Of a stretch of DNA of 22,678 bases, positions 2,314 through 22,678 are shown one piece after another. How positions within the stretch are numbered: position 1 is the first letter of the stretch; each line of letters starts with the position of its first letter. The position numbers and the translations under genes were made by a program. Source of the stretch: a virus; the IMG/VR virus record IMGVR_UViG_3300032331_002710, positions 1-22,678 of that record, one strand, 5' to 3'. A model generated the notes under the pieces. The model searched no databases and was not told the DNA's origin. It saw only the letters and a list, made by a program, of their open reading frames with translations.

Positions 2314-3330
2314 ATGGACTTACAAGCATTCAATAAAAACCTAAAATCACTTTACTGGGAAATAGTAAATGGATCTTCTGCATTTGAAGTAAACAAACAA
2401 AGATACTTCATAAAGCACATGTCTCCCAAAGATGCTGGAATTATTGAAATTCGCGAAAATTACTATTACAATAAAGCGAAGTCTCAAGGCATCCCCACAA
2501 ACGATCAAAAAATAGAAGAGTTGATTAAAGAAGGTATTTATAACCCAAAAGACGATCAAAAAATCTTCAATAATAAAATGACTCTTGCTAATCTAGTTAA
2601 GACTCGCCGCAAGTTGTATTTAACTAGAGATCTTGATAATATCGACAAACAAGTAAAAGAATTAAATCAAGAAATAGCAGATCTCGAAAATAAAAAAAGT
2701 GAACTCCTAGAAAACACTTGTGAAACCTATACGGGCAAAAGAATGAATGAGTTTTATATTTATTACTCAGTTTATTCTGATGAGAATTGCCAGAACCATG
2801 CTTTTACATTAGAACAATTTGAAGAATTAGACCAGCTTGAGTTGTTTAATTTTGTTACTTATTATTCTGAAAGCGCAAGAAAATTTAGCCATCATAACTT
2901 AAAAAGAATTGGTGTTAGCAGTTTTTTCCTTAATTACTTCTATTTATCAGAGGATAATCCATACTTCTTTTATGGCAAACCAATTACTCATTTGAGTTTT
3001 TATCAAGTTGAGCTATTTGGTTATGCAAGGTACTTTAAAGACTTAATGGGTAAATCTACCGTTAAGCATCCTGATGAATATAATGATGATGTAGATAAGA
3101 TTATAGACTGGTATGAGTCTAGTAGTAACCTTGAAAAATTACACGAAGATAAGAATGCTGCTAGTGGAAAAGAAACCGCTGTTCAGGCAGTTTCTGTCAT
3201 GGGAGCCACTAAGGAAGACCTGAAGAAGTTAAAACAAGAGAATACTGGAAGCATTTCTCTAGAAGATGCGGCGAAGAAAAAAGGCGGCACATTAAGCTTT
3301 GAAGATTTAATCAAATTACACGGCGTTTAA
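2314..3330 (+). CDS. Coiled-coil protein, paralog-like partner, putative tail assembly chaperone
   Basis: This 338-residue protein repeats the landmarks of the 246-residue neighbour: 'YFIK' at 31-34, 'E..E.YYY.KA...GI.T' at about 45-62, and a coiled coil at about 95-132 ending in 'DLENKKSELLENTCET' (123-138). After that it is longer, with a Tyr/Phe-rich region (140-250) and a polar, Lys-rich C-terminal tail (about 270-338) that is probably flexible. It has no signal peptide or membrane segment. An in-frame TAG at 2308-2310 makes the ATG at 2314 the earliest start. No normal Shine-Dalgarno is present, and the candidate GGGGG is buried in the hairpin just upstream. Its place directly before the tape measure suggests a chaperone or tape-measure-binding protein, but no known family was recognised. 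Confidence 0.65.
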   Translation: MDLQAFNKNLKSLYWEIVNGSSAFEVNKQRYFIKHMSPKDAGIIEIRENYYYNKAKSQGIPTNDQKIEELIKEGIYNPKDDQKIFNNKMTLANLVKTRRKLYLTRDLDNIDKQVKELNQEIADLENKKSELLENTCETYTGKRMNEFYIYYSVYSDENCQNHAFTLEQFEELDQLELFNFVTYYSESARKFSHHNLKRIGVSSFFLNYFYLSEDNPYFFYGKPITHLSFYQVELFGYARYFKDLMGKSTVKHPDEYNDDVDKIIDWYESSSNLEKLHEDKNAASGKETAVQAVSVMGATKEDLKKLKQENTGSISLEDAAKKKGGTLSFEDLIKLHGV

Positions 3331-3358: not shown

Positions 3359-6300
3359 ATGGCTACATCAGCAGGAAATATTCCCATTTCAGCGACGTTT
3401 GGCTCTGCCCAGCTTGAAAAAGATGTTTTGGCAGCGTTGAATCGTATTCAAAGTAAAAGCTCTCTTACTTTAAATACTAAGAACTTTAGTCAGCCGCTTG
3501 GCAAAATCACTGGTCAAGCTAATGAATTTCAAAAATCTTTAGAGGCTTCTAATGCCCGTGTTATCGCCTTCGGAGCTTCTGCTGGCGTTATTTACAATGT
3601 ACAGAAAGCTTTTAGTGCATTAGTAAGTTCTACTATCGAAGTAGAGAAATCGCTTACTGATATTAATATTGTATTAAATACATCTGCTTCTGGTATTAAG
3701 CAATTTGGAGATCAATTATTTAATGTTGCAAAACAAACTGGCTCTTCTTTTAAAGACGTAGCTGCTGCGGCAACAGAGTTTTCAAGACAAGGTTTGGGAT
3801 TAGAGGAAACGTTGAGAAGAACAAGAGACGCTCTTGTGCTTACTCGCTTGTCTGGCCTTGATGTAGTATCTAGCACAGAAGCTCTAACTTCTGCCGTAAA
3901 CTCATTTACGAAAGAAGCCCTTACTACTACTGAAGTAGTTAATAAATTAGCTGCTGTTGATGCTAGATTTGCTGTAAGTTCAAGAGATCTTTCTGAAGCT
4001 ATCCAACGTGTAGGTTCTTCTGCAAGCGAAGCTGGAGTTAGTTTTGATGAACTATTAGGTATTGTAACTTCTGTTCAGCAAACTACTGCCCGTGGTGGTG
4101 CTGTTATCGGTAACGCCTTAAAGACTATTTTTACAAGAATAGAAAGACCTCAAGTAATTAATGACCTAAGAGACTTTGGAGTTACAGTTACTGATCTTTC
4201 TGGAAATGCATTACCAGCAATAAAAGTATTGGAAAATCTTTCTCAATCTTTTCAAAACTTAAGCCCAGTAGTTAAATCTCAAGTTGCTGAATTAGTTGGT
4301 GGTGTTTATCAGATTAACATTTTAAAAGCCTCTTTAGCTGACCTTTCTAAAGAAAACTCTGTTTTCGCTGGGGCTACAAATGCATCTTCAAGAGCAGTTG
4401 ATGAAGCTATAGTAAAAAATAAAGCCCTAAATGAAAGTTTATCTGCTTTACTTAGTGAAACTACTGCCAATGCAACTCAGTTTGCTGCTAAAGTAGGTTC
4501 TGTAAGCGTTGCTCCGGGAATTAGAAAAGTTTTAGGCTTTATTAATGACCAACTTTCTTCTGTAAATGATAAAGATTCCGAAAGCGTTGGAGCGAAAATT
4601 GGAACTGGCATTATAAGCGGTATAACTAATTTTATTACTGGCCCCGGCGTGGCGATAGGGATAATTGGTTTGGGCAAGCTTTTCGTTACGTTTAGTAAAT
4701 TCGCAAAAGATGCTGGCTCAAGTTTTTTAGGTTTAAATACTATATCTCAACAACAAGGAGTGCTGCAAGAAGGTATTTCAGCTATACTTACGAAGCAACC
4801 TACTTTAATGCAGCAAATGACTTTGTCAGCTACGGCTCGTCTCAATGTAGAAAAAGAAGTTACAAAAAATTTATTAGACCAGTCTGCTTTGTTACAGGGA
4901 ATGGATCAATCTTCTCTTATTTTAGCTAAGACTTTAATGCAGCAAGGAATAGGAGCCGATACGAAAGGAAGAGTTACTAAAGGAAGAGCCGGTGGATATA
5001 TTCCTCCACAAGACAAAATGGCAGAAGTAATGGGAGCAGCTAAAGGTGGATATGTTGCTGGCAATGTAGTTAATGCTCCTGCTTCTGTTGGGGGAGTAAT
5101 GAATACTGCTGAAACAGTAAAATATGTTCCCGGCTTTAGCCAGCCATTTATACTGCCGCCAGCAGGTTCTAAAGCTGCTTCTTCTTTAGCTTCTCGTTCA
5201 ATGAATCAAACAGGAGTTAATCCTTATATGGCTAAGGGTTATGTGCCTAATTTTTCTGTTTCACCTAAAGACTGGCTTGAAGCTGGTCAAAAAAGAGGTT
5301 CATATAAAACTGCTTTCTTAAATCCAGATGGCACTCTTGGTGGTAAATGGGGAAATGCTACTTTAAATGGAGCTATTGACAACGGAGTCTCAATCGAAGA
5401 TGTTAGAAGAATTTCTAAAAATCCAACTTGGGTGTATGGACAAGCTAAAGAAGAGAGAGATGTGAAAAGAGAGCTTGCTCAATTGCCTCCTTATCAAGCT
5501 AGAGCGACAATGTTGACTTTAGAAAGCCCACAAGATTCTGGGCAAACGTTTCAAACAATAAGACCAAATGTAAAACTTGTAAGAGATAAAGGAGAAAAAC
5601 CAAAAAAAGATCTTACTCAAGAAGAAATAGCAGCACTTCAAGATGATCGTCGCGTCGATATAGCTTTTAAAGTTATCAACCTTGGCAAAGAGATTTTAGA
5701 AAAAAGTAAAGTAGATTTAAGAAAAAGAGCTGATAATTCTGCTAATGAAATATTAACTGATTTCGCTAATTCGTTACCGGGAGGAGAAAAAGCCACAGAC
5801 CAATCAAGAGAAAAATTCCTCGGTTTAGTGCAAAACCCAGCAGCGCAATTTGCAGGTAAACTTTTTGAAGCTGGGATTAATCTTTCGAGAGATTATGTTA
5901 GAGATGCTCAAGGTCAAGCTGGAGGCGATTTCGATATTAGAGGAGGGGCAAATATTGGTAGACTTAAAGAGCTTTTTCCCGGATTTAATACTAATTTAGG
6001 CGATTATAAACTAGTAAATAATATAGAAAATAGGACAAGTTTTGCTAAAAAAGTAACTGCGGAAGAATCTGGACTTATTAAAGTATTTGAAGACCAAGCA
6101 AAGTTTGATTCTAGAAATGTAGATATTGTAGCTGCTGCATCTAAATTAAAAGCTTCCAGAGCAGGTGGAAAAGCTTTTGGATTTATTCCTAACTTTAATC
6201 CAGTTCAAGAAGCAATAGGGAGAGAGATGTCTGCTGGATATTCCTCTTCTCAAGTTAAACTAGGTCAAAATAGTCAATTAAAAACATCATTTAATCCAAG

Positions 6301-9300: not shown

Positions 9301-11281
9301 AGCTTCTCAATTATCTGGTGCAGTAGGCAGAAATCCAGAGATTGCTAAAGAAAATATTTTAGGAATTTTTAAATTATTAGAAGATATCGCCAAATTACGC
9401 AGCGCAATACCTGATCCAAAAAATCCTGCTCCTTTATCGGCTTATGGCCCTTATGCAAATGGCTATAAGTTTCCTCCTGAGCAGTCATCCTCTTTTAATA
9501 CTAATATTATGGGTGGTGCCAATAATCAACCTGTTATTCCAGTAAAACCTCAATCTTTAATAGATGCAGAAATAGCTTTAGCTAAAACTCAAGAGAATAT
9601 TCAGCTTGAAAAAAATAAGAAGATACAAGAAATCAATCAAATTTATGCAAATGGCAATAAAGAATTAGCCGATCAAATGTACTTGGAAATGCAAATAGCA
9701 GATGAGAGGGCAAAAGTAACTGAGCGTTTGAATAAAACAAAAGAAGAGACTAAGAGGCTTTATGCTTCTGCTTATGGCGACACATTCTTCAAAGAAGAAA
9801 AAGCCGCTAGAATGAATGCTCAGATAGAAGATAATGCTAGACTTGGAAGAGTTGATATAGGAGGTATTACAGAAAAGAATACCACTTACAACAGAGCAGA
9901 CTTCGCAAAAGATACTGGTCAATTAATAGATACCTTCCAAACTGATTTCAAGTCTGGAATTGCTAGTGCATTTGGTGAAGCTATCAAGGGTACTAAGACT
10001 CTTAAGGATGCTTTTAGAGACATGTTCCAAGGCATCTTAAATAGAATGCTTGATAAGTCTTTAGAAATGGGTGTTGACGCTTTGTTTGCTTTTGGTAAAG
10101 CTTATGCTACTGGTAAAAAAGATGGTGGTTTAATTAAAGGATATAATTCTGGAGGCGTGGTCACTGGTGGCTCTGGGATGAAAGATGACGTACCTGCAAT
10201 GATGAGCGGAGGAGAGTATGTTATTAAGAAGTCTTCTGTTAATAAATATGGCACTAGTTACTTAAGAGCTTTGAATGGTGGAGCAATTCCAACATATGCA
10301 ACTGGAGGTTTCTCTGTGGGTCCATTACAAAATGAATTCTTATATGATAACGCAGATCGCCCAAGTGCTGGTGAATACGCTGTTGATTCTAGATTGTCAG
10401 CAATGGCTCTAACTGATGAAAATAATCCTCAAAATAAGTTAAGACAAGACCGTTATGAGAAGCTTGATCAATACTTACAAGACCGAGCCCAATATGAGAA
10501 AGACAAGAAACAAAGTCTTAAAAACTATAAAAATCAAGTAAATAGCACCTTCTATTCAGGACTAACTTCTGCTGCTATTCAATTAGGCGCTGCTGGACTT
10601 ACAATCGGAGCCAGTAATCTTAGGACTTCTGCTTCTGCTTCTGCTGCAAGAGGTTTAGAACCCGGAGGTAACTTAACTCAAGATCAATTAAACGCACAAT
10701 ACGCAAAAAATCTTAGATCAGGAGGAGGTTATATTGCTAAATTTGCTGGCGGCGGTTCTACAGGCGAAGATAATATTCCCGCTTTGTTAATGGGCGGCGA
10801 ATATGTCATGAATAAAAAAGCTGTAGACATGTACGGTAAAGACTTCATGGGTCAATTAAACTCTGGAACTCTTCCTAAATATGCTAGTGGCGGAATGGTT
10901 GGAACAAGTTATAGTGGTGGTCAAACTAATACTGATCAATCCTCTAGCATGGATGAATTAGTAACAGCATTGAATACTTTAAATGATAACTTATCTAAGG
11001 ATTCGGGAATAACTCAATCAGAATCAGGAAGAACTTCTGTTGCTGGGGCTACCCAAGAATCTGGAATGTCTGTAGTAAATAACATTTCAATCAATGTAGC
11101 TCAAGGTGGAGAAGTCACTTCTGAAGCTAACTCTACCACTCAAAAAGGTGCATCCAATTCCAAAAACGATCAAAACAGCATTCAAAACAATGCCAAGCTT
11201 GCTGAGTTACTTAGAAATAAAGTTGTCGAAGTCTTGGTTGAGCAAAAGAGACCCGGAGGGCTACTTTACGCTAGTCGATAA
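3359..11281 (+). CDS. Giant tail tape measure protein with embedded nuclease-like domain
   Basis: At 2640 residues this is about three times lambda gpH (853). Residues about 70-330 match the TP901-type tape measure domain (PhageMin_Tail): 'FGASAGVIYNVQKAF', 'SSFKDVAAAATEFSRQGL' and 'TTARGGAVIGNALKTIFTR' are typical. Hydrophobic or Gly/Ala-rich segments near 414-440, 1162-1175 and 1201-1226 could insert into the host membrane at ejection. G-[YF]-[IV]-PNF motifs lie at 627-632, 941-946 and 1015-1020. Between the first two is a candidate PD-(D/E)XK domain (E837, D857/D859, D882-Y-K884). Residues about 1230-2240 are largely helical with coiled-coil stretches. Two Gly-rich GGEYV modules lie at 2265-2317 and 2460-2512. 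ATG 3359 is the earliest in-frame start, as a stop sits at 3350-3352. AAGGA (3351-3355) is close, at 3 bases. The stop overlaps the convergent gene by 21 bp. Confidence 0.95.
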   Translation: MATSAGNIPISATFGSAQLEKDVLAALNRIQSKSSLTLNTKNFSQPLGKITGQANEFQKSLEASNARVIAFGASAGVIYNVQKAFSALVSSTIEVEKSLTDINIVLNTSASGIKQFGDQLFNVAKQTGSSFKDVAAAATEFSRQGLGLEETLRRTRDALVLTRLSGLDVVSSTEALTSAVNSFTKEALTTTEVVNKLAAVDARFAVSSRDLSEAIQRVGSSASEAGVSFDELLGIVTSVQQTTARGGAVIGNALKTIFTRIERPQVINDLRDFGVTVTDLSGNALPAIKVLENLSQSFQNLSPVVKSQVAELVGGVYQINILKASLADLSKENSVFAGATNASSRAVDEAIVKNKALNESLSALLSETTANATQFAAKVGSVSVAPGIRKVLGFINDQLSSVNDKDSESVGAKIGTGIISGITNFITGPGVAIGIIGLGKLFVTFSKFAKDAGSSFLGLNTISQQQGVLQEGISAILTKQPTLMQQMTLSATARLNVEKEVTKNLLDQSALLQGMDQSSLILAKTLMQQGIGADTKGRVTKGRAGGYIPPQDKMAEVMGAAKGGYVAGNVVNAPASVGGVMNTAETVKYVPGFSQPFILPPAGSKAASSLASRSMNQTGVNPYMAKGYVPNFSVSPKDWLEAGQKRGSYKTAFLNPDGTLGGKWGNATLNGAIDNGVSIEDVRRISKNPTWVYGQAKEERDVKRELAQLPPYQARATMLTLESPQDSGQTFQTIRPNVKLVRDKGEKPKKDLTQEEIAALQDDRRVDIAFKVINLGKEILEKSKVDLRKRADNSANEILTDFANSLPGGEKATDQSREKFLGLVQNPAAQFAGKLFEAGINLSRDYVRDAQGQAGGDFDIRGGANIGRLKELFPGFNTNLGDYKLVNNIENRTSFAKKVTAEESGLIKVFEDQAKFDSRNVDIVAAASKLKASRAGGKAFGFIPNFNPVQEAIGREMSAGYSSSQVKLGQNSQLKTSFNPSGLGVYNTTEGSLGNGISLAKKAGINPQTKGMAAGFIPNFADEFDISMVTVSLIAFGSQLKSLAGGFKEINAQTQALVKNKQIEISQSANSVKTLKKEARSKFNLSNADNDLNVTGRLRTSSGRFATAAQVADLEDIKSKIRGQREIARSAAEQARIGSAGYLNPLSLKEGGKLNNLIRSSGTGAGLAAAGALNIAEQFVPESDKKTKAAFSGAADVAQYAGLGAAFGPVGAAAGALVGVGIAAKKIVDSKAEQAIFDISTNLDKVKESSSKFSGASQTYATSLESLQNALNDPKTQPQALLKFQTSITDSLASIPDEFRSKILAAGTDIGKVADAVARVNKEMSDAQQNLERQLAITKLVKDKTGIIAGNNLKASDQDQLNRLFTQSIDPQKILSEFKGGAGEFGSFISNLKGQSIKTDKVLEYGANPNFVGSSAPKFVERTNVDQLGLKQIRSQLESKGIFGPELAAKFEEVSKNISVENVKSLFDAIDKFGKGVFSSKEAADNLLAVQKQNIEIAKKNADILKDLTQRYENLNLSLSSQIEAEKNRATTLRELNKIQAEGSVQLASARTKGALSLASPFMTEADKAAAESSLAITDLQNKQNSEIRNALDKGLSSFTDIVTKKAEDIRSKALPAVTDLSKSPEDITKELNVFNKNIQGISPLIASSLKELSTGGKIEDIKNKLIQGVTATGLFKKPEAELIAGELQNTFEGVLNELVKLTEQGKFDYAIQKVNSDYQKRSAALSEKLSLAGGAAALGSTGQVGVSDLFDKLTELTSTLGQNVRVGNPTETGSGFFKLLDSLSNQYGIRGGGVGAELAPLQNSSITARAEQLKKENERARALTNISLIGQTGSGIQAGGALDKAFNNFNENAMSVAIDQVTSQLKLDNIGTYFDLLAQESKYANELAKAQTEILARQAPDISKTFTEITTTQVGSKITELNKSLIEALKEINVTQNKTELNKQIQNLLPIASPKRRDEILKDIENTKAQYDYFNNPNQKASQLSGAVGRNPEIAKENILGIFKLLEDIAKLRSAIPDPKNPAPLSAYGPYANGYKFPPEQSSSFNTNIMGGANNQPVIPVKPQSLIDAEIALAKTQENIQLEKNKKIQEINQIYANGNKELADQMYLEMQIADERAKVTERLNKTKEETKRLYASAYGDTFFKEEKAARMNAQIEDNARLGRVDIGGITEKNTTYNRADFAKDTGQLIDTFQTDFKSGIASAFGEAIKGTKTLKDAFRDMFQGILNRMLDKSLEMGVDALFAFGKAYATGKKDGGLIKGYNSGGVVTGGSGMKDDVPAMMSGGEYVIKKSSVNKYGTSYLRALNGGAIPTYATGGFSVGPLQNEFLYDNADRPSAGEYAVDSRLSAMALTDENNPQNKLRQDRYEKLDQYLQDRAQYEKDKKQSLKNYKNQVNSTFYSGLTSAAIQLGAAGLTIGASNLRTSASASAARGLEPGGNLTQDQLNAQYAKNLRSGGGYIAKFAGGGSTGEDNIPALLMGGEYVMNKKAVDMYGKDFMGQLNSGTLPKYASGGMVGTSYSGGQTNTDQSSSMDELVTALNTLNDNLSKDSGITQSESGRTSVAGATQESGMSVVNNISINVAQGGEVTSEANSTTQKGASNSKNDQNSIQNNAKLAELLRNKVVEVLVEQKRPGGLLYASR
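5237..5254 (+). repeat. G-Y-V-P-N-F motif 1 in tape measure protein
   Basis: Residues 627-632 read GYVPNF, followed by Ser. It is the first of three copies of the pattern G-[YF]-[IV]-P-N-F. Degenerate relatives come just before it: GGYIPP at about 545 and KYVPGF at 588-593. It marks the start of the insert that holds the nuclease-like domain. The repeat exists at protein level; the DNA copies differ. Confidence 0.7.
5840..6040 (+). other. Candidate PD-(D/E)XK nuclease-like domain inside the tape measure
   Basis: Around tape measure residues 828-895 the order of conserved acidic positions fits the PD-(D/E)XK fold. A helix 'FAGKLFEAGI' carries E837, a Gly-framed strand 'GGDFDIRG' carries D857 and D859, and after 22 residues a strand 'GDYK' supplies D882 and K884 as the (D/E)xK signature. 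The following Lys-rich helix (about 893-900) could complete the core. The domain probably extends upstream to about residue 735. This is motif recognition by eye, not a profile match. Non-nuclease members with this fold exist, so catalytic activity is an inference. Confidence 0.45.
6179..6196 (+). repeat. G-F-I-P-N-F motif 2 in tape measure protein
   Basis: Residues 941-946 read GFIPNF. It closes the segment that contains the nuclease-like domain and opens a shorter unit of about 74 residues that runs to motif 3. That unit contains 'REMSAGYSSSQVKLG', 'NPSGLGVYN' and 'NGISLAKKAGINP', a block that looks like one copy of a repeat type. Confidence 0.7.
6401..6418 (+). repeat. G-F-I-P-N-F motif 3 in tape measure protein
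   Basis: Residues 1015-1020 read GFIPNF, followed by Ala-Asp. This is the last copy. Downstream the protein returns to ordinary helical tape measure sequence. All three copies are preceded by small residues or Lys (KG, FG, AG), consistent with exposed linkers between inserted domains. Confidence 0.7.
10151..10309 (+). repeat. C-terminal Gly-rich GGEYV module, copy 1
   Basis: Residues 2265-2317 of the tape measure form a Gly-rich module with 'DDVPAMM' (2276-2282), 'GGEYVI' (2284-2289), then 'KYG..YLRALN' and a closing 'ATGG'. Modules of this kind are common near the C-terminal end of tape measure proteins. A second copy with the same order lies about 195 residues further on. Confidence 0.8.
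10736..10894 (+). repeat. C-terminal Gly-rich GGEYV module, copy 2
   Basis: Residues 2460-2512 repeat the first module in the same order: Gly run, 'EDNIPALL' (2470-2477), 'GGEYVM' (2479-2484), 'MYGKDFMGQLN', then 'ASGG'. The Pro-to-Glu spacing is 7 residues in both copies. The two share layout rather than close DNA identity, so this is an old internal duplication. Confidence 0.8.
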
Positions 11282-12088
11282 TTCTTTAATCTTAGAGTCT
11301 ATAGTCAGTATAGCCTGATTATAGATTTGCTCTATATTATTATTTTTAGCTAATGGCAAGTTTAGAAAAGGAGTCTTCTCTACTTTAAGAAAAAAAGAAT
11401 GGCTAGAGTATTCTTTATTTGTAGGTTTATTTAAAGTAATACGATATCGCTTTATATAAATCTCGCCAACGAGGAAATTGTCTTTAATCTTTTCATCCAA
11501 TTCTATAAAAGTAGAACCTTGTTCTCGCTTAACATTTAATACAGAGAAGAACTTTAAAACCTTTTTGTCGTGCTTGCCTAGGATTAGGCTTACTTTTGCT
11601 CCTTTACCAGAACCTCCATCTAGTTCTGCTTGCTCAAAGTTTTGAGTAAACCTGCCATTATTAACTAAATGGAGTTCAGTAATACCTCCATTGCTATCAA
11701 TAGATTTGACTTGGAGAGTAGCTCTTTCATTTCTATCGTTGCTAGAATCGAAATAAGCATTTTTATTAATGTTAACATATTCATTTACTTTGTATCCAGA
11801 TCCAGATTCAGTAATTTCATTAATTAGAGCAGCATAATAAGTAACAAAATAACAATCAATAGTATCTCCATCTAAAACTAAATCCTTGATGGTGCTATTG
11901 ATTTTAATTGTTGAATTTGACTCTACTGTAAAAATTTTATTGTAATTAATAACATTAGCGCGGACGACAGAGAATACCTCTTCGTTTCCTATGATTTCAA
12001 TCTCTTTGCCGGGGTCAATTACAGACCAATTAGCTAAATTATTAGAATAAATAAACTCATCACCGAAACAAAACAACACATCTGTCAT
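11261..12088 (-). CDS. Beta-repeat structural protein, last gene of tail-tip operon
   Basis: I do not recognise this 275-residue protein as a named family. It looks beta-rich. Residues 90-170 carry 'ESGSGYKVNEYVNI', 'GGITELHLVNNGRF' and 'ELDGGSGKGAKVSLIL', the G-S-G-Y and GG-S-G-A pattern I know from repeat segments of phage virion proteins. The 232-residue neighbour has the same kind of segment. It starts 2 bases after the preceding stop without a Shine-Dalgarno, so it probably relies on coupling. Its last 21 bp overlap the end of the convergent tape measure gene. Its place after the J-like tip gene suggests a tip accessory, fibre or fibre-attachment protein. That role is inferred from position. 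Confidence 0.65.
   Translation of the reverse strand: MTDVLFCFGDEFIYSNNLANWSVIDPGKEIEIIGNEEVFSVVRANVINYNKIFTVESNSTIKINSTIKDLVLDGDTIDCYFVTYYAALINEITESGSGYKVNEYVNINKNAYFDSSNDRNERATLQVKSIDSNGGITELHLVNNGRFTQNFEQAELDGGSGKGAKVSLILGKHDKKVLKFFSVLNVKREQGSTFIELDEKIKDNFLVGEIYIKRYRITLNKPTNKEYSSHSFFLKVEKTPFLNLPLAKNNNIEQIYNQAILTIDSKIKELSTSVK
11298..11325 (+). terminator. Weak hairpin after the tape measure stop
   Basis: An 11-bp stem (11298-11308 with 11315-11325, one G-U pair on the plus-strand RNA) with a 6-base loop begins 17 bases past the tape measure stop, followed by a T-rich but interrupted stretch. It is AT-rich, so weaker than the two GC-rich terminators, and lies inside the 3' end of the opposing gene. 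It could end the plus-strand transcript, or be chance. Confidence 0.3.
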
Positions 12089-12792: not shown

Positions 12793-15700
12793 TTAGTAAG
12801 TTATTACTATTGAGAGTTCTAATGCTTGAATGTGGAAGTTGTATTTTGGTATGCTTCCTAATGCTTTCTTGGCAGATAAGTGAGCGAAAGCCAAATTCTT
12901 TGGATCATTAAACTTCCAGAACTGCTGATTAACAAGCGGAGTTGTTATCGCTGATCCTGCGTTATAAGAGTTTGCATAAGTATAATAATTCTTGGGGATT
13001 AAATTGTTTAAAGTAATTACTATATTATTAGAAACTCCTTGTTTTATTTGAGTGGTATTTACTTGTGCGCTTGTGAGTAAATCTTCACCATTATAGCACC
13101 AAACTTTAATCGTCTTTGTTTGAGTTGGCAGATCTGGAATTTGTATTGCTATTGATAGACTTCCTATATTTGCTAGTACTGGAACTCCAGCATAGTATAG
13201 ATCATTAAGATTAGAGATAGCAAATTGATTATTAATACTGGCTCCATCTAAAGAATAAACTGTTATTGCTTGAGAAGAACTAGATAAAGAAACAGAAGTA
13301 TTTTTTGGTGAAATACCTATATCTTTTCCATTATCTTCTGGAGTAATGTTGATTACATTAAATGGAGAAGAGAATATTCCATTATTAATTAGAGTATTAA
13401 ATATGGTCTTAGAGTTTGCTTCGGTATTTGAAGTTGTAAAGTTTACAAGAACGCTATTATCTAATGCAAAATTTAAATTTTGATTTGTTATATCATCCTT
13501 TAAAACTCCAGATAAATCGCTAAGTCTAATAATAGAAATATCAAAAAGCTCTTCGCCGTCTTTTCCAAAAGAACTGTCTGCAATTGCATTTCTGATTTGG
13601 AATATGTTTGATGCAGCGCCTTCAGGAGATGCACCTTCCAATAGTTTTGGCTGAGAGGCAAAAGAGGGGCCAGTATTTTCTACTAATGCTCTAGTAAATA
13701 TTTTATTGCCATTCAAAGGATAAGCTCTCTTGCTTTGAGGTATATTTGGAGAAATAGAAGCTGCTATAGGGAGGTTTCCTCTATTCTGTAAAGAAAGTTT
13801 ATAATAAGCGTTGCTGCCATTTGGATCTGTAGAAAGAATAGTATTATCTTGAGTAGCCGTTAAGTTAGTATTTAAAGTAGGTTTATAAACTACACTCTTT
13901 CTGCTAATGGTATAGTTAGGGAATACAGATGATGCAGCGACAGAGGTATCAAAAATATTTTCTATCATCATTGTTTGATTCAATGTAAAGTGAAGATACT
14001 TACCGTCAGCGTCTTTTATTATGTTCTCTAAAGAAGTGGTATAAGTTGGGTCAACAGCTTTCTTTATTCCAATTGGACTGCTGATTTGAGGATAAATTTT
14101 ACCAATACTGCCGTCTTTATCAATAAATAAAGAAGTATAGTCTAGGATACTTCTTGTCGTTCCATCTTCTGAAGAGTTCGCCCATGTAGACATTAAAGAA
14201 TCTTGTGCTATTAAATAAGCTTTATAAGCAGTCGAATCAAATGGTTTTCCATTAGTATCAGTATTTGAGTTAAACGAAAATACAAGTTGACTATTTGGTA
14301 CTGATATAAAATGAGAATCTATAATTTCATTTCCTGAATCGTCTTTAATTCCAAATGGATAAGTGTCTTTATATATTACAGTATTAACTCCAAATTGGAA
14401 GTTCTGAGAAATAGGAATCAACAACAAATAGAATTGATTAACAAAAGAATCTGCGGAGCTTTGATTAATTACGACGTTTAAATAGTTTGAAGCGTTTAAT
14501 GTGTTTATTGAGAAAGAGTTGCTAGTGCTTGTTAAAACTGCATCTAAAGAAGCTTTTAAATCTGAATCTTGATTATCGTATGTAAATAGCAAAAATCCAT
14601 TTTCATTTTTAAAATCATTTGATGTAGAATATAATTTTCCATCTACAAGACTAGACTTATCTATGGCAATAGAAAAGTCTCTGTATTTTGCTTTACTGGT
14701 ACTAGTCAGATAGGTATATATGTTATTTGTTGGAATGATATTGTCATCACTGAATATATAGCTAAATGGATCTGAAGAGGCTTGATACTTTGATAGACTG
14801 GTTATGAAAGAGGCTTTTGTTGTGACTTTTTCAGGAATCATTCTTAGTCTGTATGGATAAGTAGTATTGTTAAACTTTGTCAAATCAGAAATGAAGTCCA
14901 AAGGAATGTTAATTGCCAAAGAACTTGCTGGTCTAAGAGCTTTAGCGTTTGTTGGCGTTGACGAAGCAAAATACATGTTCCTGTTTTGAAGAACAGGTGA
15001 ATTAAAAGCATAACTAGCACTATTTAAAGAAATATTTTTTGGATTAACATCTTTATATGTGATTGGTATACCAGCGGGGAAAGAGGTTATGTTTGTATCA
15101 GAGCTATCTTTACCCTCTGTATAAGACAGTGGAGATTCATTATTAATGTTAACTCCATATACTCTTATGGCTCCATTAGTAAGAGGTTTTGATATTGAAG
15201 CGCTTACATATGATTCATAAAGGTTAATAGGAACAAACGTAAATGCGCTGTTTGTATTTGGATTAAAATCAGAACCGTAGACGTTGCTGGAAAAGATTTT
15301 GAATCCTATGGTGCTAGTTTTAATTGATGAATCGTAGTATATACCCAAGTCAATTTTGTCTCCATTTAAGGTAAATAAGACATTTAATGGAGAAGAAGCT
15401 GAACTTGCAGGAGGCTTTGGAGGCGTGATATTTAATCCAGATTCTATTTGCGTATATTTTAAATTATATACTTGAGAACCTAATACGGTATAATTTGTCC
15501 CTTCAGTAGATTCTTGAATTCTAAAAATTCTATAAAAGTCATAATCGCTATCTGTAGAGCCATCAAGATTGCCAGAGTTTTCTAAAGCCCAAGTTATTGA
15601 CTTTGGAGAAAGTCCAGAAGCTCCAGTAAAAAATCCCAATCCAGTTACATTTAATCCAGAAGCCATCACAGAGGTTAATCCAGTGATTCTAATAGAGTCA

Positions 15701-18700
15701 TAGTTTTGACCAGTGATTAAGTTTCCGCTATTAATTATAAATGAATTAGTTAATGGTTTTCTGTATTCGTTATAATCATTGCTTGTAGTGATAGCTCCAT
15801 TGACGCTTGGATCTAGATTATATTTAGGAGAAAGTATTGTTAACTTATAATTTTGACCTCCAGAAAAATTGAAATCAAGTTTTCGATCTAACGTTAGTGT
15901 ACCAGTAGTAGCAATTGCTCCTCCAGAAATATCAATATAATTTAAGCGTCCGCCTACTGTTTTGTATTTCTTATTGTAATCATAAACTTTGATTACGTCT
16001 CCGGGTTTTAGATAAACACATTCAGGACCAGCTTCAAAGGATACTGTTTCTGTTTCATTATATTCTGAAGCTAATAACCATCTGCCGAGTCTTTGCGCTT
16101 GTCCTCTGCTTGTGCATCCAAATGCTGTTAATTCGCTTTCTCTAAATCCAAATTTTCTAACTGCTTCTATGTTTTCTACATATTCTACTGCTGGTTTATA
16201 AAGATTGTTCTTATCAATATAACGCACATAAACAGCAGAGTTTCTGTCTTTTAAGGAAGTAGACTCGTAATTAAAGTTACCATCTATTACATTAGAATTT
16301 GTAAAAGAATAAACAGGAGTCTCTTCTGGCATATCATTTATTGAGAAAATGAATCCATTTGAATAATAAAACATTCCTCTAAATATTGAAGCCATGTCGG
16401 CCAATACTTTAAGAGCATCTTCTTGAGTTTGGATATAAAGGTTACAAGAGAATCTAGGTTCTACCCCGCCAAAGCCGTCGCTCACCAGTTCGTCGCAATA
16501 TTTGCCAATCTGATATAATGACCATTTATCTACGTCGCTTTCAGAAACATAGTTTCCTGCTCCGTATCTCTTGTTTGTTAGAAGGTCATAAAAGCACCAA
16601 GCTGGATTATCTGTCCATTCTTTACTAGCTTTAAAGGTCCCATCCCAATAATCAGTTGAAGATGAATAAGGTTGAACTACAGTAGGAACATAAGTAGTTG
16701 TTTTCCTTGGAAGACCTTCCGCGAGCAAAGTTCTTGAATAAGCTTTAGCAAGAGAAACTCTATCAAATTCAATTTGATTAACTCTAATAGAGTCAGCAAA
16801 TCCAATAAACTTTCCTCCAAAACTACTGGCACTTTTATCTGTAAAGATTTCTATTTGAGAACTGTTGTTGATAAAATAGGCAGGAATAAATGGCCCAGTT
16901 TTTGTATTTGTTTTATTAAAAGCATTAAAAATTTGACCAGCTTGCAAAGGAAGTAAAACATTAGTTTGGGTTGAAGACAGGCTTACAGAGGCAGAAGATG
17001 CGTCAAAAGTTTTGTCTATATTTAGATTATTGTAAGTATTTAAAGCTTCTTGAGATAATTTTTCAACCCTTTGTCTTTCAAAAAGTACGCTCGCTTGATC
17101 TCCTTGATTAGCGTCTGTAGTCGCTTCAAATGGTCTCCAATCATATCCTGCACAAAGAGTTTGATAATAAGGGTAATTTGCTATGTTTATATTGCATTGA
17201 ATTTGCTTTTCTAAATCTAAAAGAACATCAATCTCTGCGTTTAATATATCTGGGAAATAGTCTTTTGCAAGTTGTCTATTACCATAAACGACAGCGTTGT
17301 TAGGTTGATTAAAAGTGAATGCAATATATTTCTGACAGTTCTTTGGAAGATTAGATATTTCTGTATAGTCAGTATCTTCTCTAAATGAAATTCCTTGGAC
17401 CATTGAGGTCCACTGATTTATGGTTAACCCTAATTCTCTTGCTAAAGCTGCATCGTCTACGTTAACGGCTTTTCTTAAAGTAGCAAAGTAAGTGTCAATC
17501 CAAGTCATATCGCTGGCATTAATATTACTAATTTTGCTTGCGTTTGGTTTAAATAATAGAGTTGGTTTTACTATTTTTGGTAATACATATAAACTGACTC
17601 TTGTAAATTTGCCTTTAAGTATTGTAGTCGAATATTTTAATGGATCTAGGGTTTTTGTTATAGTGTAATTTTTGGTTTCATTACTAGAAATAATATTTAA
17701 AATTAAACTAGTATTATCGCCATCTAATTTTATACTAAGATTAAACTGACCATCTCTATGGATTAAAGTATAGGTTCCATTTCCAATGCCTGAAGCTAAT
17801 TTTAAATAAAAATCACAATAAAAACTACAAAATCCTTGCTCTTTTAAAGTAAAGTTTTGTTGAGTTTTCCAATTTTTCCAATATCTCTGAGGTATTAAAT
17901 CAAATTCATAATAATCTGCCGCAGCAAGCCCAGAGTCATTGTAAGCCTTGCTTCTATGCCCGTTGGCACATATAGTATCCAAAGGCATCTTCAAATAAGT
18001 ACTGGCTCCAACGCTAAGGACATTTGTGTTGTAAGCGCCAGTGGTGGTGGTGTAAGTTAAACTGTTTCTAGTTACGTTCCATTTATTATTAAGCCAGTTT
18101 CTTACTTTAATAGAGTCTGTTTTAGAAAGTGCTTTTTTATAAATTAAAACTTCAAATACAGTACATTTACTTGCTTCAGTAACATTAATAGCAAGCCCTT
18201 TGGGAGCGACAGTAGCATCTGTTGGTTTTATATAGTAAACGCTATTTTGCCAAAATAAATTTACATCTTTTGAACTAGTGACGCTTGCTCCTATAATATA
18301 TGTATTTGAATCGCTAGAAGCATTCCAGTAATTAGAACGATTAAATTGAGAAAATACTCCGGGTAACAATCCATAAACCCAGTTGCCTATAAGAAAAGCA
18401 TTATTAAAATTTTGATAATTACCTAAAATCCAGTTACCGCTATTACCAGAAGAAGATAAAATTCTTTTCCTTTCTGCGGATGTCGAAGTGTCATGCCATT
18501 TTGCTACAATAAATACAGTATAGTTTCCATTTGCATCACTAAATGAAGTTGGCGTATCTGAATCAATAAACTTTACATATTGACTAGTGGTGAATGATAC
18601 TCCGTAGCTGCTTCCATTTGGGCTTGTCTCAGAAAATGTACTTCCTTTTGTTGGCTTATTCGCTGCACCGACTGGAGAAGCGTATGTTCCGTTGCCTAAA

Positions 18701-20169
18701 ACGCATTTTACAGGTGATCCAGCCACGCTGTTATTCCAAGTAACTACGGTTCCTGCTGTAGTCGTAGCTACGTTTGCGTCAAATTGTCCATACAGTGAAT
18801 CTGTAATTGGAGGAGTTGTATCTGTCGTGTTTGCGTAAACGTTGTTTTCTCCCACGAAGAAATCAGGAGCAATTGCTTTATCAGTCTTAGAATAGGTATC
18901 GATAGTAGTAATTGTACGAGTCGTGCTTTCCCCATATGTTTTAGTCAATGGATCATAATTAGAAGGCACTTTAACCTTTAAGAGTTTTACATCATAAGTT
19001 CTATCTGGTATTTTGGAAAAGTAGGCTGCATTAAATTTAGAAGTAACAATTGCTGAATTTGTATATCTAAATGAAGAAGAATAAATTTCAGTAATGCTCT
19101 CTAATGTTATGAAAGAGCTTCTTGAAGAATAGGTATCTTCTGGAGTGATTTTTAATACTGAAAGATCCCAACCTATCCAGTTTTCATTTGTATTATATGA
19201 AGCGAAAACTTTAGACATGTCAAGGATAATTTGCTTGGAGTATCCTTGAGTGACTTTGCCCTTAGATTCTATTTCTATTATTTGAGGGGCTGCGTCTAAA
19301 GTAATAGAAAGGTCTTTAGCGTCAGGAACAGACTTTGCAGTAGAGGAAACTATGTCAAGAGCAGCAAGGTTTGCATTATAACCTTCTTTAAAAATTGGAG
19401 TTATTTTTATTCTTAGTTTAAATTTATAATAGAGAACAGATCCAACGCCGCCTTTAATACTCGTCTCATTATTCTGTAATTGTCTATCTGTGGTACTCAA
19501 TTGAAAAGATGAATCGCTTACATTAGCGCCATCAACACCCTCTACCGTCAAAGTCTTATTTGAAATAGGGGTTAGGTCTTGATACTTTAAAGTGACATAA
19601 AGAGAAGAAATTCTAAAGTTTAAAGATACCTTTTTACATTCTTTATTTGATATGCGATAAGATCTTTGATAATCAGAAATTTCATCTTGAGTTGTAGCTA
19701 AAGTATTTGGCCCTCTCAATCTTTCTCCAATTGAGCGAATGTAAGAAACATTATCAAATAATCCATTTACAGAAGTTCCAACGGGAGTTCCATTTGAAAC
19801 ATTTACGTTTATTTGCTGAAAGTTATATTTATCTTGACTATCTAAAAGAGGGGTTTGATTCCATTGAATAGATTTTAAATAATTGACTTGCGAGGTATCT
19901 CCTACTGTTGTGGGGTACTCATTATAAGTTACCTTGCTGTATCCTAGATTTCCAATCGCACCACTAAAGACGTATTGACCATTTACTAATCCATCAATTG
20001 GGCCTTCAGAAAGCAAATCTTTTACTTTACCAAACTGATAAACATTATAGTTGGTTCCATTGTAAATAAATCCCTCTGGATCTTCATAGGCTGCTGTTGG
20101 CTGTGCTGCTTGTGAGCCTCCACCGCCACCAAAGCCTTTTATGTATTTAAAATCTTCAAGATTGTTCAT
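12793..20169 (-). CDS. J-like tail tip attachment / host specificity protein
   Basis: At 2458 residues this is about twice lambda gpJ (1132). The N terminus is typical of J: a Gly run at 14-18, 'KDLLSEGPIDGLVNG' (50-64) and a 'TPLLDSQDKYNFQ' segment. The J core lies at about 1175-1400: 'YWDGTF', 'WTDNPAWCFYDLLTNKRYG', 'EPRFSCNLYIQTQEDA', 'GRWLLASEYNETETVSFEAG' and 'LKPGDVIKVYDY' (phage tail protein 3 type). Between the two is a long insertion with a LamG-like domain (455-699) and a second beta-sandwich-like region (778-862). Residues about 585-1690 after the core begin with a fibronectin-III-like segment near 1585-1690. The last 770 residues are beta-rich with no recognised domain and likely hold receptor-binding parts. 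It forms the central tip, crosses the outer membrane contact and sets host range. No Shine-Dalgarno is visible before the ATG; it starts 2 bases after the I-like stop. Confidence 0.93.
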   Translation of the reverse strand: MNNLEDFKYIKGFGGGGGSQAAQPTAAYEDPEGFIYNGTNYNVYQFGKVKDLLSEGPIDGLVNGQYVFSGAIGNLGYSKVTYNEYPTTVGDTSQVNYLKSIQWNQTPLLDSQDKYNFQQINVNVSNGTPVGTSVNGLFDNVSYIRSIGERLRGPNTLATTQDEISDYQRSYRISNKECKKVSLNFRISSLYVTLKYQDLTPISNKTLTVEGVDGANVSDSSFQLSTTDRQLQNNETSIKGGVGSVLYYKFKLRIKITPIFKEGYNANLAALDIVSSTAKSVPDAKDLSITLDAAPQIIEIESKGKVTQGYSKQIILDMSKVFASYNTNENWIGWDLSVLKITPEDTYSSRSSFITLESITEIYSSSFRYTNSAIVTSKFNAAYFSKIPDRTYDVKLLKVKVPSNYDPLTKTYGESTTRTITTIDTYSKTDKAIAPDFFVGENNVYANTTDTTPPITDSLYGQFDANVATTTAGTVVTWNNSVAGSPVKCVLGNGTYASPVGAANKPTKGSTFSETSPNGSSYGVSFTTSQYVKFIDSDTPTSFSDANGNYTVFIVAKWHDTSTSAERKRILSSSGNSGNWILGNYQNFNNAFLIGNWVYGLLPGVFSQFNRSNYWNASSDSNTYIIGASVTSSKDVNLFWQNSVYYIKPTDATVAPKGLAINVTEASKCTVFEVLIYKKALSKTDSIKVRNWLNNKWNVTRNSLTYTTTTGAYNTNVLSVGASTYLKMPLDTICANGHRSKAYNDSGLAAADYYEFDLIPQRYWKNWKTQQNFTLKEQGFCSFYCDFYLKLASGIGNGTYTLIHRDGQFNLSIKLDGDNTSLILNIISSNETKNYTITKTLDPLKYSTTILKGKFTRVSLYVLPKIVKPTLLFKPNASKISNINASDMTWIDTYFATLRKAVNVDDAALARELGLTINQWTSMVQGISFREDTDYTEISNLPKNCQKYIAFTFNQPNNAVVYGNRQLAKDYFPDILNAEIDVLLDLEKQIQCNINIANYPYYQTLCAGYDWRPFEATTDANQGDQASVLFERQRVEKLSQEALNTYNNLNIDKTFDASSASVSLSSTQTNVLLPLQAGQIFNAFNKTNTKTGPFIPAYFINNSSQIEIFTDKSASSFGGKFIGFADSIRVNQIEFDRVSLAKAYSRTLLAEGLPRKTTTYVPTVVQPYSSSTDYWDGTFKASKEWTDNPAWCFYDLLTNKRYGAGNYVSESDVDKWSLYQIGKYCDELVSDGFGGVEPRFSCNLYIQTQEDALKVLADMASIFRGMFYYSNGFIFSINDMPEETPVYSFTNSNVIDGNFNYESTSLKDRNSAVYVRYIDKNNLYKPAVEYVENIEAVRKFGFRESELTAFGCTSRGQAQRLGRWLLASEYNETETVSFEAGPECVYLKPGDVIKVYDYNKKYKTVGGRLNYIDISGGAIATTGTLTLDRKLDFNFSGGQNYKLTILSPKYNLDPSVNGAITTSNDYNEYRKPLTNSFIINSGNLITGQNYDSIRITGLTSVMASGLNVTGLGFFTGASGLSPKSITWALENSGNLDGSTDSDYDFYRIFRIQESTEGTNYTVLGSQVYNLKYTQIESGLNITPPKPPASSASSPLNVLFTLNGDKIDLGIYYDSSIKTSTIGFKIFSSNVYGSDFNPNTNSAFTFVPINLYESYVSASISKPLTNGAIRVYGVNINNESPLSYTEGKDSSDTNITSFPAGIPITYKDVNPKNISLNSASYAFNSPVLQNRNMYFASSTPTNAKALRPASSLAINIPLDFISDLTKFNNTTYPYRLRMIPEKVTTKASFITSLSKYQASSDPFSYIFSDDNIIPTNNIYTYLTSTSKAKYRDFSIAIDKSSLVDGKLYSTSNDFKNENGFLLFTYDNQDSDLKASLDAVLTSTSNSFSINTLNASNYLNVVINQSSADSFVNQFYLLLIPISQNFQFGVNTVIYKDTYPFGIKDDSGNEIIDSHFISVPNSQLVFSFNSNTDTNGKPFDSTAYKAYLIAQDSLMSTWANSSEDGTTRSILDYTSLFIDKDGSIGKIYPQISSPIGIKKAVDPTYTTSLENIIKDADGKYLHFTLNQTMMIENIFDTSVAASSVFPNYTISRKSVVYKPTLNTNLTATQDNTILSTDPNGSNAYYKLSLQNRGNLPIAASISPNIPQSKRAYPLNGNKIFTRALVENTGPSFASQPKLLEGASPEGAASNIFQIRNAIADSSFGKDGEELFDISIIRLSDLSGVLKDDITNQNLNFALDNSVLVNFTTSNTEANSKTIFNTLINNGIFSSPFNVINITPEDNGKDIGISPKNTSVSLSSSSQAITVYSLDGASINNQFAISNLNDLYYAGVPVLANIGSLSIAIQIPDLPTQTKTIKVWCYNGEDLLTSAQVNTTQIKQGVSNNIVITLNNLIPKNYYTYANSYNAGSAITTPLVNQQFWKFNDPKNLAFAHLSAKKALGSIPKYNFHIQALELSIVITY
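18073..18807 (-). other. LamG / concanavalin-like lectin domain inserted in the J-like protein
   Basis: Residues 455-699 of the J-like protein look like a LamG-type jelly-roll. They open with 'LYGQFDA', continue with 'GVSFTTSQYVKF', 'YTVFIVAKW', 'WILGNYQ' and 'SNTYIIGASV', and close with 'VFEVLIYKKALS' and 'VRNWLNNKWNV', the usual ending of such domains. They often bind glycans. The segment is bounded by Thr/Pro-rich linkers, which fits a mobile domain inserted ahead of the conserved J core. Confidence 0.7.
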
Positions 20170-20171
20170 TT

Positions 20172-20909
20172 TTATATATTGTTTATTTGACCTTTAACGT
20201 CTGCTGATGTTGACTTAATATCTAGTTCGACATTGTTCATTGATATCTCAACGGTTTGAGATCCTATTTTCATTCTTCCATATCCAACTGGAACAGGTCC
20301 GCCCTCTCCAAGAATGTTAGAAGGTCCGTCAAATAAGTAGTTAGGCTTACTGCCATCATTTATTTTTCTAAAGTCATCAAATTTTGGAGGAGACATCATT
20401 AATAAAGTAACGCCAGTTACTGCTAGACCAATACCTGCTCCAATTAAGGCGCTAGAAATTATTGAAGTAGAAGTTGCTCCAGCGGCAAAAGTGCTTCCCA
20501 TGAGCGTAAATCCCCCTGCTGCTCCAATACCTGTTGCAATTAGTATAACGCCTAAAACTAAGGCTATTATTCCTTTGCTACTGCTTCCGCCTCCACCACC
20601 GCCAGCGCCTTTGATAATAGGCACAATATCTAAACTCTCTAGTTTATCATTTATCATTACTAACTCAGAATTAAAAATAGACTCTGGCCTTTCTAAAGAT
20701 ATATCTTCTGCCGCCATCATTTCTCTTTTATTAACGAGAATCTTATATTCGACGCTTTTCTCTGCTGCACCAATTAAATACTTCAATAGCTTGCCCTTAG
20801 ACAAGACTTGGATAGCTCGCAAAGCTTCCTTTATAGAATTTACCTTTAAATTCCATTTTTCTCTACCTACTTGTTCTGCTATCTCGCCGTGTAAAGTTAT
20901 ACTAGTCAT
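20172..20909 (-). CDS. I-like tail assembly protein
   Basis: This 245-residue protein matches the lambda I family (tail assembly protein I). Residues 1-95 form a ubiquitin-like beta-grasp region ('ITLHGEIAEQVG', 'AAEDISLERP'). A Gly run follows at about 103-108, and then two hydrophobic segments at about 113-130 and 150-172. The C-terminal signature is 'GPSNILGEGGPVPVGYGRMKIGSQTVE', the 'G.PVPV.YGR..VGS' pattern of the family. In lambda, I is needed for tail tip assembly and is not clearly part of the finished tail. The order K-I-J is kept. Its start lies inside the end of the K-like gene (8-base overlap), and no Shine-Dalgarno is visible. The hydrophobic segments are normal for the family and do not make it a holin. 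Confidence 0.88.
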   Translation of the reverse strand: MTSITLHGEIAEQVGREKWNLKVNSIKEALRAIQVLSKGKLLKYLIGAAEKSVEYKILVNKREMMAAEDISLERPESIFNSELVMINDKLESLDIVPIIKGAGGGGGGSSSKGIIALVLGVILIATGIGAAGGFTLMGSTFAAGATSTSIISSALIGAGIGLAVTGVTLLMMSPPKFDDFRKINDGSKPNYLFDGPSNILGEGGPVPVGYGRMKIGSQTVEISMNNVELDIKSTSADVKGQINNI

Positions 20910-21648
20910 AGAGATTGTTTCTCATTATGTAAATTACCCATTTTTTATAGCCATTAGAAAGTCTTTCGGTGGTAGAAATGCTATCCCCCGGATGGTGCAA
21001 GATCGTATCTTTACCCAAATAAACTGCACAATGGATGGGAAAATTGAATTTTTCTGTTCTCATTATTAGAACATCGTTTTTCTTTAGGTCAGAAACTTGC
21101 CTAAACCCATTGTACTCAAAGTACTTCTTAAGGTAATCGTCTTTATCTTTTAAAGATTCTGCTTCATTAATGAATCTTTTGCTTGCCATCTCATTATACT
21201 CTTCTTCAGAAACATTATTTTTAAGAACTTCTAGCTCTGGACAAAAATGAATATTTAAATCATGGCAGTAATAATCTTTTACTAGCCATAAACAGTCAGC
21301 AAATCCCAAAAGGAAAGGTCTTCCTGTGTATTGAATTTTGTAACCATTTGGATTGTAAACGTGGAAAGATCCGCTTTGCTTATTATAAACAACACACGTT
21401 AATCCTAGTCTTTCAGAGACAATTATATCTGCATCTGAAATACTATCAAAATCAATATGAGAATGATAGTAACCAACAATATTGGACTGCTCATTGACAT
21501 CCATCATGAACTCAGTGGCAGAATTAATTAGGTTTTCTTTTCTTTGAACTTCTATTCCGTTATCCGTATGCACTAAAAAGCCGCATACTTCGTTATTAGA
21601 AGTATTAGCATGTTCAATGATCTGATTTTTAATTTCCTCTATTAGCAT
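20902..21648 (-). CDS. K-like tail tip protein, second copy (JAMM + NlpC/P60 peptidase)
   Basis: With the start at 21648 the protein has 248 residues. The N-terminal half is a JAMM metallopeptidase domain: E20 in 'NEVCGF', H62-S-H64 in 'YYHSHIDF', then S71 and D74. The C-terminal half is an NlpC/P60 domain with catalytic Cys119 ('LGFADCLWLVKDYY'), His206 ('PIHCAVYLG') and a further His pair at 218-219. In lambda, K has this layout and acts at the tail tip, where the P60 part probably cuts peptidoglycan during entry. An upstream in-frame ATG exists at 21672, but AAGGAG at 21658-21663 is 9 bases from the ATG at 21648, which also gives a normal 7-base overlap with the preceding gene. It is preceded by a second K-like gene. 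Confidence 0.88.
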   Translation of the reverse strand: MLIEEIKNQIIEHANTSNNEVCGFLVHTDNGIEVQRKENLINSATEFMMDVNEQSNIVGYYHSHIDFDSISDADIIVSERLGLTCVVYNKQSGSFHVYNPNGYKIQYTGRPFLLGFADCLWLVKDYYCHDLNIHFCPELEVLKNNVSEEEYNEMASKRFINEAESLKDKDDYLKKYFEYNGFRQVSDLKKNDVLIMRTEKFNFPIHCAVYLGKDTILHHPGDSISTTERLSNGYKKWVIYIMRNNLYD

Positions 21649-22400
21649 AACTGTTTGCTCCTTGCGAAACAATAGATTCTTCTCTTCTCTGCGTCTGTTA
21701 GTTTTTCAATGATTGATTTCTTATTCCTTGGCTGGTGCAAAATATAGTTTTGCCCAAGATAAATGCCAAAGTGAGAAGGGTAATTTTCTAGATATTTGAA
21801 AACAATGATGTCGTGTTTTTGGGCATTTTCAATACTTTCAATTTTAATAAAGTTTTCTTTTTCGAAGAACTTATCGAAGTTCTGTGAATCACAAAACTCC
21901 GCCAATTTGTCTTTCACAAACTCTGCATAATTTTTATCCCAATCTGTTCCTCTTTCATAATGAAAAATTTTAATACCAAACTCTTCATTGTAATAGTTCT
22001 CTACTATTGATAAACAGTCAGACTTGCCGATTACAAAGTCTTTATCAATGTATTTATTATAGTAATTTTCTGGAGAGTATTCTTCAAAAGAGTCTTTTTT
22101 AAGTATATAAACTATATTTTTTAGATTAAGCTTGTGACTTATTTGCTTATCTAACTCCGAAAAGGAATTGTCTTGTATGCAGTGCGAATGATAAATACCA
22201 GTAATTTTACCATTCATAGTGGCCTTTAAGTAATCCATTTGACATACAATGAATTCATTCTCTTTATCTTGAGCGACGTTTCTGCATGGAAAGGCTTCTA
22301 ATACATTTTTACCATTTAAAAGCAAGAGGCCGCAACATTCATCTGGATTTTCCTTTAATGAATGCGCTTTTATTTTAGCTTTTATCTCATCTGAGATCAT
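21642..22400 (-). CDS. K-like tail tip protein, first copy (JAMM + NlpC/P60 peptidase)
   Basis: This 252-residue protein has the same two domains as its downstream neighbour. The JAMM half has E21 ('PDECCGLLLL'), H71-S-H73 ('GIYHSHCIQD'), S81 and D84. The NlpC/P60 half has Cys129 ('IGKSDCLSIVENYY'), His210 ('PSHFGIYLG') and His222 ('ILHQP'). All expected catalytic positions are present, so it does not look like a decayed copy. The ATG overlaps the L-like stop by one base (TAATG), with GAGGGG about 7 bases upstream as a possible ribosome binding site. The end overlaps the second copy by 7 bases. In lambda only one K follows L. The protein probably sits in the tip complex and remodels the cell wall; division of labour with its paralog is unknown. 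Confidence 0.88.
   Translation of the reverse strand: MISDEIKAKIKAHSLKENPDECCGLLLLNGKNVLEAFPCRNVAQDKENEFIVCQMDYLKATMNGKITGIYHSHCIQDNSFSELDKQISHKLNLKNIVYILKKDSFEEYSPENYYNKYIDKDFVIGKSDCLSIVENYYNEEFGIKIFHYERGTDWDKNYAEFVKDKLAEFCDSQNFDKFFEKENFIKIESIENAQKHDIIVFKYLENYPSHFGIYLGQNYILHQPRNKKSIIEKLTDAEKRRIYCFARSKQLC
21658..21663 (-). promoter_or_regulatory. Shine-Dalgarno site that fixes the 21648 start
   Basis: On the minus strand AAGGAG lies 9 bases before the ATG at 21648. It is the best ribosome binding site in the minus-strand operon. It lies inside the 24 bases that a start at 21672 would translate, so it argues for the shorter protein. Confidence 0.8.
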
Positions 22401-22678
22401 TACATCGCCCCTCTATTATAATTAGATACTCCATAAAATCCTCCAAAAGGTAAAGGATTTTCTCCGAATCTAATTTTGCATCCTTTAACACTCTTAGAAC
22501 ATTGATCTGCTAACCAATATTGTCCATTAGGAGGGGGGATGTTAATTGGAACTTCTAATTTTGCGACGAAATAAAAGTTTATGCCTTTTTTGGCTATAAA
22601 GACTACATCTCCTTTTTTATAAGAAGTTGATGACCCCCATTCATTAGGGGCATTCGAAATAGGAACCCCGGCAAATAG
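22400..22678 (-). CDS. L-like minor tail protein, C-terminal end (partial)
   Basis: This reading frame enters from beyond the window edge and ends in TAA at 22400-22402; 92 residues are visible. The last 40 residues are a clear match to lambda L: 'CSKSVKGCKIRFG', then 'PLPFGGF'. In lambda this region holds paired cysteines that bind an iron-sulfur cluster; the two here are 7 positions apart, and earlier ones would lie outside the window. Just before them is an insert-like segment with 'EWGSSTSYKKGDVVF', 'YFVAK' and 'GQYWLAD', which resembles a CBM5/12 chitin-binding-type module. L joins the tip complex at the end of the tail tube. The order L-K-K-I-J keeps the lambda order apart from the extra K. 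The M-like gene is expected just outside the window. Confidence 0.85.
   Translation of the reverse strand, partial: LFAGVPISNAPNEWGSSTSYKKGDVVFIAKKGINFYFVAKLEVPINIPPPNGQYWLADQCSKSVKGCKIRFGENPLPFGGFYGVSNYNRGAM

Follow-up and report, generated by a model that had tools for sequence, protein, structure and literature searches.

Two long-diverged K-like tail-tip genes in tandem, each encoding JAMM and NlpC/P60 domains, in a virus record of IMG/VR

The stretch of DNA analysed here, referred to as the window, comprises positions 1 to 22,678 (22,678 nt) of the IMG/VR virus record IMGVR_UViG_3300032331_002710. Its minus strand carries the gene order L-KA-KB-I-J, in which a pair of K-like genes is located between L and I and upstream of J:

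22400..22678, minus strand: C-terminal end of the minor tail protein L (PF05100, 25.1 bits against a cut-off of 25; phrog_18), the gene being cut by the window edge
21642..22400, minus strand: KA, K-like tail-tip protein with JAMM and NlpC/P60 domains, 252 aa
20902..21648, minus strand: KB, second K-like protein with JAMM and NlpC/P60 domains, 248 aa from the ATG
20172..20909, minus strand: I, tail assembly protein (phrog_32, 2e-31), the likely partner of the JAMM domains
12793..20169, minus strand: J-like central tail protein of 2458 aa, 3' of I (Phage-tail_3, 5e-25)

Neighbouring genes overlap, with 7 nt shared between KA and KB and 8 nt between KB and I. The reading frames of KA and KB are free of internal stop codons. 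The ATG of KB is preceded by the sequence AAGGAG, and an earlier in-frame TTG start was found at 21672.

The tail module of the window is arranged in two convergent arms, with a tube-like protein and the tape measure on the plus strand and L-K-K-I-J on the minus strand. The arms meet near position 11,270, and relatives such as G007 and G004 show the same order. In the relatives G001, G003, G004, G006, G007, G009 and G010, a longer ORF (approximately 555-581 aa) that resembles the 393-aa tube-like protein of the window adjoins the counterpart of that protein, and in some of these relatives a weak match of 274 aa is located near M. The extra tube-like ORFs are possibly paralogues of the tube protein. 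The tail genes at 23-1204, 1521-2261, 2314-3330 and 11261-12088 of the window gave no clear Pfam or PHROG match.

An earlier note on this DNA had described the tandem genes as each encoding JAMM plus NlpC/P60 with intact active sites, which is borne out by profiles, residues and AlphaFold2 models. Both proteins are matched along their length by phrog_30 (minor tail protein; KA 7.3e-48, KB 5.9e-37) and both pass the Pfam cut-off for NLPC_P60 (KA 2.4e-9, KB 4.2e-6). The JAMM half of KA is above the Pfam cut-off (Prok-JAB, 35.5 bits vs 25), whereas that of KB is below (Prok-JAB 17.9 vs 25; JAB 18.5 vs 22.5), with a fold that is clear in the model. The JAMM residues are E21, H71, H73, S81 and D84 in KA and E20, H62, H64, S71 and D74 in KB. 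Both copies have the catalytic Cys, the His and the third polar residue of NlpC/P60 enzymes (C129, H210 and H222 in KA; C119, H206 and H218 in KB). The JAMM motif is given as EXnHS/THX7SXXD in the accessible part of a 2003 paper (PMC300881). With x7 between HxH and S, KA fits this motif exactly, while KB reads HxH-x6-S-x2-D and thus has all JAMM residues but is one residue short of the published x7. Since the x6 spacing was also found in 10 rows (unique sequences) of single-K phages, the shorter form is probably workable.

KA and KB share 28-30% identity, depending on the aligner. Their global alignment score of 245 compares with a mean of 18 (SD 7, maximum 42) for 200 shuffles, so the resemblance is far beyond chance. 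The AlphaFold2 models reached a mean pLDDT of 90.7 for KA and 89.2 for KB, with pTM values of 0.63 and 0.77, respectively, and are confident within the domains. Both match solved JAMM and NlpC/P60 structures, including Rpn8-Rpn11 entries. The top PDB match of both is PfJAMM1 of P. furiosus (5ld9), which is also available in complex with the ubiquitin-like SAMP2 (5lda), and the P60 halves match MepS.

Compared to known systems, KA and KB share domain order, active-site residues, fold and the gene place between L and I with the lambda-type tail assembly protein K (TAPK; JAB plus NlpC/P60; phrog_30). What differs from the usual single K is the presence of two long-diverged copies in tandem, of which KB has the x6 JAMM spacing. 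A single copy per tail module is usual for lambda-type K, although not strictly defining, and the window has two. The K rows of isolate phages that were examined show 20-31% identity to the window copies. PfJAMM1 and the archaeal desampylases, which act on ubiquitin-like SAMP, share the JAMM fold and the metal-site residues with KA and KB, but are stand-alone cellular enzymes without P60, and the matches of the window copies to the desampylase profile (desamp_Halo) are weak and far below the cut-off. The murein endopeptidases MepS/Spr (NlpC/P60) share the P60 fold and its Cys and His residues, but are secreted host enzymes that lack a JAMM domain. In lambda itself (NC_001416, L088:4134-4876), the start of the JAMM domain with its Glu lies in an ORF at 4134-4364, in another frame than the annotated K (4277-4876), which lacks the first ~48 profile positions.

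When used as separate queries, KA and KB recovered the same 46 IMG/VR contigs, all close relatives (visual comparison of the two lists). Apart from one contig that starts inside KA, all of these carry both frames in full, and exactly two K matches were present in 12 of 12 larger records examined. The earlier note had proposed a search for other phages with two K genes in tandem, and this yielded, by hand count, at least 68 contigs from several deep lineages, a figure that includes three contigs in which one copy is cut by the contig end and that, like the counts below, is a lower bound rather than a survey. The more distant pairs comprise at least 3 contigs at ~61% to KB, at least 2 of the L103 type, at least 15 of the L370/L373 type and at least 1 each for L314 and L365.

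Isolate phages were matched by KA in 1,444 records (1,446 places) and by KB in 40 records (40 places); two other second copies matched 966 places in 965 records and 1,502 places in 1,500 records. No tandem pair was present among the top matches listed, which are a part of the 1,444 records matched by KA. Two K places occur in Moraxella phage Mcat5, but they lie ~20 kb apart and so do not form a tandem; one further isolate record matched by KA has two K places and lies outside the matches listed. I directly follows a single K in 151 of 157 unique rows in which 900 nt or more of sequence flank the K on either side. Together with the isolate matches, this agrees with the expectation of the earlier note that one K is usual in lambda-like phages. 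The second copy of a pair is likewise directly followed by I (43/44 rows). A megablast search of isolate phages with the first 11.3 kb of the window gave no match, and one host genome scan gave a distant single-K match in a Methylococcaceae MAG, outside the K group of the window. Among the freely accessible papers found in a literature search, as far as their available text goes, we recognised none that describes tandem K genes.

Median dN/dS values in the clade of the window, obtained with a counting method from pairs with dS between 0.1 and 2, are 0.056 across 33 KA sequences and 0.113 across 37 KB sequences, so both copies are under purifying selection there. The JAMM and P60 halves evolve at similar dN/dS within KA and likewise within KB. 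The P60 halves are about as slow as the JAMM halves, and there is no sign of a relaxed P60 in this clade. The retention of distinct roles, as suggested by the earlier note, is likely because both copies are kept in the close contigs.

In the tandem lineages that were sampled, the active sites of the two copies differ in their constancy (the rows counted here are unique but not independent). In 44 of 44 first-copy rows, every residue scored for JAMM and P60 is in place. Second copies keep the JAMM set in 46 of 47 rows, the exception being an exchange of S for T, and the P60 set in 32 of 47. In the 15 changed rows, which amount to about three independent events, either the Asp before the Cys is replaced by G, T or S (12 rows) or the His is absent (3 rows, which belong to the two contigs L314/L505 and L365). 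Replacement of this Asp does not necessarily inactivate a P60 enzyme. Among 208 single-K control rows, a few of which come from contigs that cut a pair, the Asp is changed in 4 and the His absent in none, while 11 differ or are gapped at a JAMM position. The P60 site of KB is complete in the clade of the window and in L103.

The I protein of the window has a predicted ubiquitin-like N-terminus, followed by a GAGGGGGG linker and a hydrophobic stretch. Such a Gly-rich linker is also present in I of single-K phages, while it is weak or absent in the tandem phages L370 and L373; it was therefore rejected as a mark of tandem phages, and I offers no feature that would account for two K. In the available part of PMC1779556, Iyer et al. 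(2006) predict that K uses its JAB domain to free the ubiquitin-like domain of I at a terminal glycine. In the accessible portions of the literature on K and I, we found no demonstration of cleavage of I by K. According to the accessible sections of two reports (PMC10721106 and PMC11101478), lambda virions contain gpI, the N-terminal part of which is unresolved, but gpK was not detected in them; the negative result for gpK comes from mass spectrometry (PMC10721106). Some related phages have a K consisting of JAMM alone (ORFs of 111-168 aa) in the usual place. Seven such loci were found (L514, L515, L517, L518, L521, L522 and L524), and I lies directly behind this K in 6 of 6 loci inspected, mostly by eye (all but L515).

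The two JAMM sites are constant in tandem phages, whereas P60 is constant only in KA, which favours a JAMM-centred reason for the presence of KB. The explanation we rank first, and to which we would give an even chance, is that the pair is kept mainly for JAMM, with KA as the dedicated P60 enzyme and KB as a second JAMM peptidase or assembly factor serving I. We infer the following mechanism from sequence comparison and models. The tail-tip K gene would have been duplicated long ago, giving the paralogues KA and KB, and JAMM would be the part for which both copies are retained. During tip assembly, the JAMM domain may engage or cleave I at the Gly-rich linker of its ubiquitin-like N-terminal domain. 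JAMM-dependent maturation of different partners, as suggested in the earlier note, would gain indirect support from this link to I. The main contribution of KB would be a further JAMM peptidase or assembly partner with a different tuning, for I or for another tip protein, while KA would carry the P60 activity, with peptidoglycan or protein as its putative substrate. In the clade of the window, KB may hydrolyse too, since its P60 site is still complete there. A heterodimer, two peptidoglycan specificities and a role in counter-defence all rank below this reading.

Formation of an obligate MPN-type heterodimer, in which KA and KB pair via their JAMM domains and one copy serves to activate its partner or to position it in the tip, is rather unlikely. 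Such an arrangement fits the match of both models to JAMM/MPN folds, Rpn8-Rpn11 among them, as well as the joint retention of the copies in the close clade. Rpn11-Rpn8 and BRCC36-KIAA0157 pair as MPN heterodimers, in which one partner lacks its metal site. Here, by contrast, the site is kept in both partners, as seen from the above counts for first and second copies.

The earlier note had also considered that the copies cleave different peptidoglycan cross-links. Two hydrolases differing in cross-link or stem-peptide specificity would be in line with the complete P60 sites and the purifying selection on both P60 halves in the clade of the window, and with the resemblance of these halves to MepS. 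This proposal found no support, because the P60 site of the second copy changes in three other lineages (none of the 44 first-copy rows is affected) while its JAMM site stays. In addition, a JAMM-only K suffices for related phages at this locus, where the K place alone was examined, and the reported absence of gpK from the lambda virion proteins detected also speaks against it. We thus regard two peptidoglycan specificities as improbable.

With regard to the origin of the pair, a recent duplication was ruled out by the low identity of the copies and by a top local DNA match of less than 70 nt, in agreement with the divergence noted earlier. The phylogeny proposed as a check in the earlier note placed the copies not in unrelated families, but together in a single family of K proteins. 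With the exception of that of L365, the second copies (14 rows) group in one clade (97/89) in a tree built from 71 K proteins, as did 11 second-copy rows in a smaller sampling (94/87), and the second copy of L103 joins KB of the window at 99/89 in a separate tree. This makes the pair look old. The 71-protein tree, for which no root was inferred, does not unite the first copies in one clade, so that gains and losses of KB are indistinguishable. The copies of L365 are each other's nearest relatives (100/99), which on sequence grounds identifies this pair as a separate, independent duplication.

A separate duplication in every lineage, with the copies kept by chance or for dosage, is quite doubtful despite the case of L365. 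AU tests did not reject the sisterhood of the own pair for the window lineage (p 0.078; 0.215 in an earlier sampling) and L103 (p 0.093; 0.139 in the earlier sampling), and an old shared duplication is hence favoured for the window pair, but not proven. The same tests rejected own-pair sisterhood for the L370 type (p 0.0003) and the L373 type (p 0.0045), and the single clade of second copies likewise argues against repeated duplication. An identity as low as that of KA and KB, combined with dN/dS values of ~0.06-0.11, is unlike dosage redundancy.

It is highly improbable that KB is a counter-defence deconjugase whose JAMM strips ubiquitin-like host proteins, attached by Bil-type immunity, from J at the tail tip, while KA does the normal assembly and the P60 of KB is a vestige fading in some lineages. 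In favour are the closeness of the JAMM domains to desampylase and PfJAMM1 and a reported bacterial ISG15-like system by which ubiquitin-like proteins become attached to the phage central tail fibre (PMC11364771, accessible part). A counter-defence gene would, however, be expected to have a patchy distribution, whereas KB belongs to the invariant structural series L-K-K-I-J and was present in every close contig found.

Retention of the pair mainly for JAMM bears on a long-standing question. The function of lambda K was stated as unknown in 2003, when its JAMM half was noted (PMC300881, available text), and the cutting of the ubiquitin-like part of I was a guess of 2006 (PMC1779556, likewise). 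Phages with JAMM plus P60 twice, with a changed second P60 and with JAMM alone constitute a natural set that separates the two activities and makes the JAMM question testable by mutants. The set hints that, at the position of the K gene, P60 is more readily dispensed with than JAMM, which is at odds with the customary label 'tail-tip cell-wall peptidase'.

Two deviating arrangements were observed among the other loci. In L314 (4462-6703), I is part of a single open frame that spans 747 aa or more, as though it had been joined to J. In the single-K protein of L104 (2962-3699), the JAMM site may be dead, since HxH reads H-S-Q there.
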